Assembly: GCF_028890305.1 (NCBI RefSeq)
Contig: NZ_JARBXM010000001.1
Span: forward strand, 498,501-562,500
DNA: 64,000 nucleotides
From: Candidatus Methanosphaera massiliense
GTDB taxonomy: Archaea > Methanobacteriota > Methanobacteria > Methanobacteriales > Methanobacteriaceae
Direction: 5' to 3'
Shown in pieces: positions 1,056-16,856 of this stretch. Numbering within the stretch: the stretch's first letter is position 1; each line of letters opens with the position of its first letter. A program made the position numbers and the translations under genes. The notes beneath the pieces were generated by a model. It did not search any database. It was given only the letters and a program-made list of their open reading frames with translations, and was not told the DNA's origin.

Positions 1056-1115
1056 CTCTCTTATTATTTTTTCAAAAAAAATAAATATCACCAAAAACAA
1101 ATATATTATTAATTG

Positions 1116-1173
1116 AAAGGTGATGAGGTTCCACCTATTTAACCGCCAGTGATTACTGGATGATGACTTCTAT
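1116..1173 (+). promoter_or_regulatory. Fluoride riboswitch (crcB motif)
   Basis: Visible in order: GGTGATGAGGTTCCACC (1119-1135), a short A/T joining segment, AACCGCC, a hairpin CCAGT-GATT-ACTGG, then TGATGACTTCTA ending near 1172. This matches the order and conserved bases of the crcB fluoride aptamer (for example the Thermotoga sequence with GATGAGG...TGATGGCCTCTA), including the elements that form the pseudoknot. A T-run follows immediately. It lies about 150 bases upstream of a cation/proton antiporter gene on the same strand. Fluoride control of an exporter is established for this RNA class; how it acts in this archaeon is inference. Confidence 0.92.
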
Positions 1174-1326
1174 TTTTTATTAAAGGTAATAAATTGTATT
1201 TTGCCTATGATCATCTATTAATCATGGAAAAAAAGGAATCACGATATTTTTTTTATTTGATTTATTTTGTATGCATACTACTTTTATTATTCTTTAATTA
1301 TTTATTAAATAAAAGGAGATTTTTAA

Positions 1327-2460
1327 TTGATTAGTGATATTTATCCTGTAGTACTAGCAGTCCTTATTGTTTTAGCTAGTGTCATTTCAATTAAGTGGAG
1401 TATTTCCATATCTATTGTTGAAATTATACTTGGTATTATTGCAGGAAATTTAGGATTGTTAGAACCTGAAAGTTGGATGATTTATGTTGCTAGTATTGGA
1501 GGTATGGTATTAACATTCCTTGCTGGTACAGAAGTTAATCCAAAGTTAATGAAAGATAATTTAAAAGAATGTTTAATGATTGGTGTTGCATCATTTCTAA
1601 TATCATTTGTACTCGTATTTATTGTATGTGAATATATGTTATTATGGCCTCTTACATCATCATTACTAGTTGCTACTGCATTATCAGAGACTTCTATTGC
1701 AATTGTTTATTCCATTATTCTTGATAAAGAGTTATCTGGTAAAAAGATAGGAACAATACTCATGGGATCTACATTTGTTACAAACATTTGTACGGCATTT
1801 GCATTAAGTGCTTTATTCATGAAACCTACCATAGAAACATTAGTATTTGTAATAGCATCTGTAATTATACTTGTATTCTCATATAAATACTCAGATATTT
1901 TATTTGAAAGTCAAACATTTAGTATGACAAGTAACCAGTTAGAACTTAAATACATATTCCTATTACTTGTATTATTAATATTCTTTGCAACTCTTGGTTG
2001 TGGACAGGCATTACTTCCAGTATTCATACTAGGAGCTATACTTTCTAAACCATTCAGCCATACCAACAAAAATAATATGCTTAAAAGATTACAGACAGTA
2101 GCATTTACTGTTATTACACCAATATTTTTCATAGTTAATGGATCAAAAGTATCAATTCCAGTTATACTTGGAGCATTAGGTGTGTTCTTATTAATATTTG
2201 TAGTACGTCAAATAGGAAAATTTATTGGAGTATATACAATTGTTAAAACAAGTTTAAGTAAGTATCATATGTATATTACAATGGTTATGAGTACGGGGTT
2301 AACCTTTGGATTAGTAGCAGCATCCTATGGACTTAATAATAATATAATTTCATCTCATGTTTATAGTATTCTAACAGGAGTGCTAGTTTTAAGTGCTATA
2401 ATTCCAAGTATTATTGGTAATAAATATTTTGCTCCTACTGAAGAAGATTTAAAAGAATAA
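1327..2460 (+). CDS. Cation:proton antiporter (CPA2/KefB-type membrane domain)
   Basis: A 377-residue protein of about 11-12 hydrophobic segments with the antiporter-type features AGNLGLLEPESW near residue 40 and a conserved acidic FLAGTEVNP segment near residue 65, like the FLxGLE element of CPA exchangers. There is no C-terminal TrkA domain. The start is TTG at 1327, set by AAAAGGAGAT at 1312-1321. The fluoride riboswitch upstream implies it is induced by fluoride. CPA antiporters are among the gene classes known under crcB RNAs in bacteria. Whether it moves F- itself, or Na+/H+ to restore homeostasis, cannot be read from sequence. Confidence 0.85.
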   Translation: MISDIYPVVLAVLIVLASVISIKWSISISIVEIILGIIAGNLGLLEPESWMIYVASIGGMVLTFLAGTEVNPKLMKDNLKECLMIGVASFLISFVLVFIVCEYMLLWPLTSSLLVATALSETSIAIVYSIILDKELSGKKIGTILMGSTFVTNICTAFALSALFMKPTIETLVFVIASVIILVFSYKYSDILFESQTFSMTSNQLELKYIFLLLVLLIFFATLGCGQALLPVFILGAILSKPFSHTNKNNMLKRLQTVAFTVITPIFFIVNGSKVSIPVILGALGVFLLIFVVRQIGKFIGVYTIVKTSLSKYHMYITMVMSTGLTFGLVAASYGLNNNIISSHVYSILTGVLVLSAIIPSIIGNKYFAPTEEDLKE

Positions 2461-3369: not shown

Positions 3370-4581
3370 ATGTATGAAATAGGAGAAGCTTTAATCGGAG
3401 ACGGACCTGAATTAGCACATATCGACCTTATTGTAGGTGATAAGAAAGGTCCAGTAGGAACTGCTTACGCAACAAACATGGCAAGTATGTCTGTAGGACA
3501 CACACCATTATTAGCTGTTATAAGACCAAACTTACCAGTGAAACCTGCAACACTTATTGTACCTAAAGTAACAATACAAAACTTAGAAGATGCAAATAAA
3601 ATATTTGGTCCTGCACAAACAGCAGTAGGACGTGCAGTTGCTGATGCTGTAGAAGAAGAAATAATACCTAAAAACATGGTAGAAGATATTGTTATAATGG
3701 TAAATGTATTCATTGATCCTTCAGCTAAGGATTATCGTAAAATTTACCAATACAACTATGGTGCTACCAAATTAGCAATTAAACGTGCATTTGATAAATA
3801 TCCATCAATAGACAAAGTATTAGCAGAAAAAGATAGAGGAACACATCCAATTATGGGATTCAAAGCAATGAAATTATGGAATCCACCATATCTACAAGTA
3901 GCATTAGATTTAGATAATGAAGATAAAATGCGTAGCATAATTAGAGATTTACCAAAACGTGAAAGAATTCTTATTGAAGCAGGTACACCTCTTGTTAAAA
4001 AATTCGGTGTAGATATTATTAGTAAAATAAGAGAAGAACGTCCTGGTGCTTTCATTATTGCTGATCTTAAAACTTTAGATGTTGGAAGAGTAGAAGTTAA
4101 AATGGCAGCAGATGAAACAGCTGATGCTGTAGCTATCTCTGGTCTTGGAACAAATGAATCTATAGAAAAAGCTATACATGAATGTTCAAAACAAGGAATT
4201 TACTCCATACTTGATATGATGAATGTACAGGATATTCCTGCTAAACTTGAACAACTTGAATTAAAACCTAACATAGTTTTATTACATAGAAATATTGACT
4301 CTGAAACAATGAATGATAATGATAATGAACAACAATCCGAATGGGGAAACATTAAAGAAATTAAAGCTAAACTTGGTAAACGCGGTTTAATTGCTGTTGC
4401 TGGTGGTGTAACACCTGAGAAAGTTAACACAGCTCTAGATAATGGTGCTAATATTATAATTGCAGGTAGATACATTATTGGTTCTTCTGATGTAAGAAGA
4501 GCAGCAGAAGATTTCCTCAGATATATGCCACAAGACTCTGACACAATGAGAGTAGCATTAGATGAAGATGAAGAAATATAA
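3370..4581 (+). CDS. fae-hps: Bifunctional formaldehyde-activating enzyme / 3-hexulose-6-phosphate synthase
   Basis: A 403-residue fusion. The N-terminal Fae domain (about 1-165) contains [26 protein letters not shown] and [18 protein letters not shown], and condenses formaldehyde with tetrahydromethanopterin. The C-terminal Hps domain (about 170-390) carries the ADLKTLDVG metal/substrate motif and AVAGGVTPE, the TIM-barrel phosphate loop. In archaea lacking the pentose phosphate pathway this fusion makes ribulose-5-phosphate by running the RuMP aldolase backwards and captures the released formaldehyde. GGAG lies ahead of the ATG. It appears monocistronic with a T-run after the stop. Full length for the family. 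Confidence 0.97.
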
Positions 4582-13788: not shown

Positions 13789-13931
<143 letters not shown>

Positions 13932-16424: not shown

Positions 16425-16730
16425 GGCATGCTGAGAGTAACCCACCTCATGTTTTATTGCAGTATTTATCTTAGCAAGATACCTTTGTCTTCTTTAACAG
16501 AAATGACAATATTTACTTTTGCACTCCATGGATTGATCGTTTCATCGATTATCTATCTTAGGCATCATCAACGTAATTGTATCATCTTTCAAAGCCTGGT
16601 TTAGACGTATCGTATCGTTTCTATTTCAGTGTCACACTTCTCAGCGTATGTTAATTAAATACATCATGGTTTTCTGTAGTGGATGGAGTTTCCTCAGTGA
16701 AATTCACCGTTAACTGCACTTCAGCTTACC
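16425..16730 (-). ncRNA. rnpB: RNase P RNA
   Basis: Minus-strand RNA of about 306 bases. The ends pair as helix P1: GGTAAGCTGA at the 5' end with TCAGCATGCC at the 3' end, one mismatch. CR-I is visible as GAGGAAACTCC followed by ATCC, and the 3' universal region as ACATGAGGTGGGTTACT. CCA-T-CC pairs with GGTGG, giving P4 with its diagnostic bulged U. Length and order fit archaeal type A RNase P RNA. It lies between polB1 and the initiator tRNA gene. Exact ends are estimated from P1. Confidence 0.88.

Positions 16731-16781: not shown

Positions 16782-16856
<75 letters not shown>

Follow-up and report, generated by a model that had tools for sequence, protein, structure and literature searches.

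As set out in excerpts of a 2024 review (PMC11139923), bacteria export fluoride with two kinds of protein, Fluc and CLC-F, and eukaryotes with FEX, and >85% of surveyed bacterial strains possess a fluoride exporter. The same excerpts report an association of the fluoride riboswitch with Na+/H+ antiporters, and the link as such is therefore already in print; the protein family found behind the riboswitch here is less expected. An ON design with a terminator-like hairpin is described for the fluoride motif in an excerpt of PMC2864571. A treatment of the present family as fluoride exporters was not found in the open-licence PMC literature, judged by titles and the beginnings of abstracts.

The locus described here lies in a window of 64,000 nucleotides, the whole stretch of archaeal DNA that was analysed, and a riboswitch with its target gene is certain at the level of sequence features. 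A cmscan search against Rfam places a fluoride riboswitch aptamer (RF01734) at 1110..1179 of the forward strand, with a score of 50.9 bits (gathering score 34; E = 3.8e-11, computed for both window strands and 4227 families), and the match spans the full model (positions 1-64 of 64). It is the only RF01734 copy in the 1.79-Mb source genome. The covariance search that the original prediction had proposed thus came out above threshold, and the elements from which a nearly complete crcB aptamer core had been read are all in place: GGTGATGAGG at 1119-1128, the CCAGT/ACTGG hairpin at 1146-1150/1155-1159 and TGATGACTTCTA at 1161-1172, followed by a T-run (1173-1178) and a weak ATGAT/ATCAT hairpin (1207-1211/1221-1225). 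The leader, put at about 150 bases, measures 147 nt from the end of the aptamer to the start codon (1180..1326, forward strand). Upstream, a possible TATA element was read from the sequence (ATAAATATCA, 1081..1090, forward strand) and, by the spacing rule between TATA elements and transcript starts, would possibly set the start near 1110, just 5' of the aptamer; the region is poorly conserved in comparison with a congeneric genome (G122).

The gene behind this leader (1327..2460, forward strand) has a TTG start and a Shine-Dalgarno sequence, GGAG, at 1315..1318, and encodes a 377-aa transporter of the CPA superfamily, placed by PF00999 and by the ion-site analysis in the derived E121/N153 subclade of a fluoride-riboswitch-linked family. 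It is a short gene standing alone in the window, with the next downstream gene on the opposite strand. The Pfam scan returned PF00999 only (111.6 bits, cut-off 26.2), hence no match to PF02537 (Fluc/CrcB), and the score for the CPA2 subfamily TIGR00932 of NCBIfam (64.2 bits) falls below its cut-off of 238.3. Neither CrcB (PF02537) nor CLC (PF00654) was found in the source genome, which is 99.88% complete, and the transporter, as a PF00999 protein, is not a CLC-F. The RF01734 and PF00999 matches confirm that in this archaeon the aptamer precedes a CPA-type transporter instead of CrcB or CLC-F. The description 'cation/proton antiporter' holds as the name of a family, while as a function it is a prediction; it is used here as a family name only, because the canonical Asp-Asp is absent, the riboswitch-linked family occurs in both domains and its genomes are mostly free of Fluc. 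Since the genome search turned up no known fluoride exporter, the transporter may be the cell's fluoride defence, and the two main contenders are still those originally raised, an unusual exporter or pH/Na+ homeostasis. Elsewhere in the window, a gene for a bifunctional Fae/HPS lies at 3370-4581, and the genome looks methanogen-like. An archaeal RNase P RNA on the reverse strand (16426-16729, 165.7 bits) lies next to tRNA-Met (16782-16856). Also on the reverse strand, Rfam matches a tRNA at 13789-13931 (143 bases, 40 bits) that ARAGORN does not report and that is perhaps intron-bearing.

The pairing of riboswitch and transporter extends well beyond this genome. A scan of genome contigs with the family alignment gave 136 relatives, of which 80 were kept, a set biased towards the family by two peptide patterns used in the scan. 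The relatives include Methanoperedens, Micrarchaeota, Deltaproteobacteria, Nitrospinota, Nitrospirae, Elusimicrobia, Omnitrophota and Zixibacteria, among others. RF01734 was present at the Rfam cut-off in 51 of the 79 loci scanned (12/20, 11/20, 15/20 and 13/19 by batch; the remaining locus, L089, is from the same species as the window), always on the strand of the gene and 5' of it; the gene follows within 43 nt in 41 of the 51 and after 54 to 573 nt in the other ten. A model built for this analysis, R1, added aptamers at L134, L092 and L140, the last also seen below the Rfam cut-off. No aptamer was found at the remaining 25 of the 79 loci, 22 of which gave no hit when searched again with R1; at the other three (L096, L131 and L168) there is hardly any DNA upstream of the gene, or none. 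Among 16 Elusimicrobiota members, the five most distant all have an aptamer (5/5). Across 138 Methanobacteriaceae genomes, RF01734 was found in 18 (counting one likely false riboswitch, L018, 22.8 bits), CrcB in 14, CLC in 84 and the antiporter in 21, and the riboswitch was present in 13 of the 21 antiporter genomes against 5 of the 117 others (p 2e-9). Eight of these 21 genomes had no RF01734 match, and a sensitive scan around five of the eight genes (L203-L207) recovered no aptamer.

Several other arrangements of the fluoride aptamer were encountered. It precedes a different CPA protein, with the canonical Asp-Asp, in three Methanobacteriaceae genomes that have no CrcB match (L003 in G132, L004 in G004 and L012 in G119); one of the three belongs to the genus of the window. 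Tandem fluoride aptamers about 370 nt apart stand before one antiporter gene in G016 (L013/L021) and G014 (L016/L022), the gene in G014 being interrupted. Second aptamers in G012 (L019) and G013 (L020) are not followed by an evident gene within a few hundred bases, and the stretch that the two share contains a Shine-Dalgarno sequence and ATG ATC TAA. Matches to the DUF3800-X RNA occur near the antiporter in two archaeal loci (L094:190-263 and L097:1200-1271).

Genomes with the transporter tend to lack Fluc, with a strength that differs between groups; in all of the p-values that follow, the genomes are not independent. Within the Methanobacteriaceae, CrcB occurs in 0 of 21 antiporter genomes against 14 of 117 others (p = 0.13, not significant), and riboswitch and CrcB never occur together (0/18, p = 0.21). 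In one genus (g1), none of the five genomes with the antiporter, two of which are one species, has CrcB, against 9 of 15 others (p = 0.038). The four Methanobacteriaceae antiporter genomes with a CLC (G006, G009, G037 and G042) have GSGIP and GxFxP, which we take to be chloride-type CLC motifs, and no CLC-F signatures. Those signatures are given in excerpts of the review as GNNLI/GMGLI, GREGT/V and GEVTP (PMC11139923). Among 198 Elusimicrobiota genomes of unstated completeness (the phylum of G187 and L150), 70 have CrcB and 16 have the antiporter (E < 1e-50), and CrcB is found in 0 of the 16 against 70 of the 182 others (p = 0.0008). An unclassified CLC is present in two of these 16 genomes, and one gives a CLC match under the threshold. 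Many genomes of this phylum have neither CrcB nor the antiporter, and of four with weak matches that were left out of the family (G368, G337, G365 and G383; E 1.6e-8 to 4.1e-4), G337 and G368 have Fluc. A wider set of 50 genomes of unstated completeness was drawn from the 72 kept loci outside the Methanobacteriaceae (48 non-Elusimicrobia, together with L130 and L150; G187 belongs to this set and to the 16), and of these one has CrcB, seven have CLC and 43 have neither. The single core-family genome with CrcB is G182. The CLCs of G140, G151, G159 and G162 have GREGP with GVFAP or GLFAP, and those of G167, G179 and G182 are by their motifs a poor fit to either class.

The ion site of the family has been rebuilt relative to known antiporters. 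A profile of 17 members, compared with solved structures, retrieves three Na+/H+ antiporter entries (PDB 4bwz, 5bz3 and 5bz2, presumably NapA) as the only solved structures (best E 8.6e-18), while the window sequence on its own retrieves none in the same kind of search. In NapA, an Asp-Asp pair on TM5 binds the ion. In the profile alignment this pair, D156-D157, falls on Thr152-Asn153 of the window protein, which is accordingly not of the NapA Asp-Asp type; A125 falls on Glu121, K305 on Lys298, which is kept, R331 on Gly324 and E333 on Thr326. Across 92 members, near-copies included, Glu69, Thr122, Phe150, Lys298 and Thr323 are invariant, Thr152 and Gly324 are each present in 88 and Thr326 in 90, and the Asp-Asp position is Thr-Asn or Thr-Asp in 88. 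Residues 121 and 153 are E/N in 56 members, T/D in 30, E/D in six and T/N in none. The loss of the acids could be taken for a loss of proton coupling; that reading was rejected because a carboxylate is present at one of the two sites, on TM4 or TM5, in all 92 members, and in the window protein it is on TM4. The exchange between the two positions has a Fisher p of 1.3e-18 that ignores kinship, and it is not statistically replicated, since the tree, with T/D near the root, needs four changes of the combined state and an independent-pairs test cannot reach significance. Four more distant, riboswitch-bearing Elusimicrobiota proteins form a sister subclade with Asn-Asp and the same STGLTFG. Asn-Asp is the usual motif of CPA1. 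Plasmid homologues of Lactococcus, Ligilactobacillus and Niallia retain Asp-Asp and SRGE; in one of Haladaptatus there is Asn-Asp but no STGLTFG.

Relatives of the distant subclade also occur on plasmids, in neighbourhoods that, in addition to the riboswitch, link the family with fluoride defence, yet place it beside Fluc. On pMB6956_1 of Enterobacter cloacae, the family gene has its own aptamer (59.4 bits), its product groups with the four Asn-Asp proteins, and its neighbours are a universal stress protein, MutS, a P-type ATPase, crcB, phosphoglycerate mutase and enolase. Antiporter, UspA and crcB stand in this order on a plasmid of Methylocystis sp. MJC1, with an aptamer found by R1, and a second fluoride-aptamer match by R1 lies downstream of crcB on a Methylocystis plasmid (L213:6656-6717, 39.9 bits). 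Aptamers were present at four of the five plasmid members examined, two of them found by Rfam and part of the training set of R1, against 0 of 4 other CPA homologues; the member without one is from Methylocystis iwaonis (L214), and the four homologues with no R1 aptamer are those of Lactococcus, Ligilactobacillus, Niallia and Haladaptatus. In E. cloacae FRM, a riboswitch-driven operon, ppaC-uspA-eno-gpmA-crcB-orf5249, confers fluoride resistance, and an antiporter is not among the six genes named in the excerpt of that report (PMC5533749). Since plasmid relatives lie beside crcB, the family gene is not always a replacement of Fluc, and a strict reading of the transporter as standing 'instead of Fluc' is weakened.

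Fluoride defence, with which the plasmid neighbourhoods and the riboswitch link are consistent, is very likely the role of the transporter, which would probably be an exporter dedicated to that defence and possibly serves only pH homeostasis. On the latter account, a proton-coupled Na+ or K+ antiporter would expel the protons that HF carries in, with fluoride leaving otherwise or being tolerated. The excerpts of the review offer this explanation for the whole class of riboswitch-linked antiporters (PMC11139923). Its main evidence comes from the plasmid members, found with crcB and UspA and in one case also with enolase and a P-type ATPase, and the three genomes in which a canonical Asp-Asp antiporter follows the same riboswitch (G004, G119 and G132) suit it as well. 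The site itself points both ways: the retained carboxylate and the equivalent of NapA Lys305 limit the export reading, as cation/proton antiporters use them too, and the sister subclade has Asn-Asp, but Asp-Asp and the TM11 Arg/Glu have been lost in a conserved manner, which is unexpected for an ordinary NapA-type antiporter. Pure homeostasis would also leave the window genome, and most of the core-family genomes examined, without a recognised fluoride exporter. It is a serious contender that we rate clearly under an even chance, and fluoride export is a little more likely.

A third account, in which the protein carries phosphate, an organic acid, a divalent cation or some other substrate of importance to a fluoride-stressed cell, seems improbable. 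NhaA-fold relatives carry other substrates, but nothing adjoining the gene in the window hints at one. Fluoride regulons include phosphate and divalent-cation genes, according to excerpts of the review (PMC11139923).

The leaders of the family suggest how the aptamer may control the gene. In many bacterial members a terminator-like hairpin was recognised by eye, in which the aptamer 3' strand precedes its own complement and then a T-run (for example ACCTCTACC...GGTAGAGGTCTTTTTTT in L130), and the overlap of such hairpins with the aptamer 3' strand argues for ON logic. Where archaeal members have a short leader, its Shine-Dalgarno sequence lies directly 3' of the aptamer, which suggests translation control, though a CTCC/GGAG pairing is expected for any such sequence and is no proof on its own. 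By eye, no bacterial-type terminator hairpin was recognised in the window leader, which has an extra stretch; there G122 retains the islands AAAGGTA, ATCATC and TAATCA within otherwise diverged sequence. The 3' pseudoknot strand of the window aptamer, ACTTCTA (1166..1172, forward strand), could alternatively pair with the Shine-Dalgarno sequence, a complementarity to AGGAG that was judged by eye and that any Shine-Dalgarno-like sequence would share. In folding predictions, pairing of the window Shine-Dalgarno sequence is 0.61 in the free fold and 0.20 with the aptamer locked; among three other long leaders, the lock has less effect in L009 (0.73 to 0.57) and L017 (0.76 to 0.50), and in L014 it raises pairing (0.53 to 0.67). 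Control of access to the Shine-Dalgarno sequence is the best, if unproven, reading of the expression platform. A candidate anti-aptamer strand farther downstream, ATGATCATCTATTAATCATGGA (1207..1228, forward strand), is complementary to P3 and the linker of the aptamer (RNAduplex -18.8 kcal/mol; 9/500 dinucleotide shuffles as good) and has weak support as part of the switch. The pairing is not significant in L014 (195/500 shuffles) or L017 (71/500), and the best aptamer partner in L009 (10/500) is a different stretch; the anti-aptamer switch is kept as a weak candidate. That the aptamer is a relic, or is uncoupled from the gene by its 147-nt leader, is very improbable: the leader exceeds that of most relatives in length and G012 and G013 have aptamers lacking an evident gene, but the window aptamer scores across the whole RF01734 model and its core is nearly identical in G122, where the protein is 77% identical and the DNA 5' of the aptamer has diverged.

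From the calculated features, namely the aptamer, the gene pair, the family-wide riboswitch link, the changed site and the genome in which no Fluc or CLC was found, we infer the ON direction, the translational level, fluoride as the transported ion and the proton coupling. Fluoride would enter the archaeon as HF and bind the aptamer while the first part of the transcript is being made, and the folded aptamer would capture its 3' strand in the pseudoknot, leaving the downstream Shine-Dalgarno region open and turning on synthesis of the CPA-fold membrane protein. With its rebuilt ion site, comprising a single carboxylate (Glu121), the invariant Lys298 and Thr/Phe-rich segments of TM5 and TM11, this protein would most likely export fluoride in exchange for protons and take the place held elsewhere by Fluc or CLC-F. 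This whole chain, from fluoride-induced ON switch to an exporter replacing Fluc/CLC-F, is put at close to an even chance. Its extension to the family is more tentative and falls somewhat short of even: the members may constitute a third prokaryotic family of fluoride exporters, proton-coupled carriers of the NhaA/NapA fold in which the Na+ site was rebuilt (Asp-Asp to Thr-Asn/Asp, and PRGEVG to STGLTFG on TM11) and, in one subclade, the proton-carrying carboxylate moved from TM5 to TM4. Should the family export fluoride, many seemingly defenceless genomes would gain an exporter and the NhaA fold an anion substrate, and some methanogens of the human gut and the rumen, like members of several uncultured phyla, would rely chiefly on this transporter for defence against fluoride.

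Set against the described systems, the window aptamer resembles the crcB motif (RF01734) in its full-length match above the gathering score and differs in being archaeal and upstream of a CPA-type transporter. The crcB RNA of Thermococcus kodakarensis is likewise an archaeal fluoride aptamer, present in transcripts, but lies upstream of TK0513, which adjoins crcB (TK0514), as excerpts of that report describe (PMC4247193). The riboswitch-linked Na+/H+ antiporters of Baker et al. 2012, as cited in excerpts of the review (PMC11139923), combine the same gene class with the riboswitch, a likeness at the level of class only. The Fluc (CrcB) channel and the CLC-F fluoride/proton antiporter stand under the same riboswitch elsewhere and possibly do the same job, although they belong to other Pfam families than the window protein. 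Compared with NapA, the window protein keeps the equivalents of Lys305 and Thr126, but has Thr-Asn in place of Asp156-Asp157, Gly and Thr in place of Arg331 and Glu333, and a new Glu at the position of Ala125.
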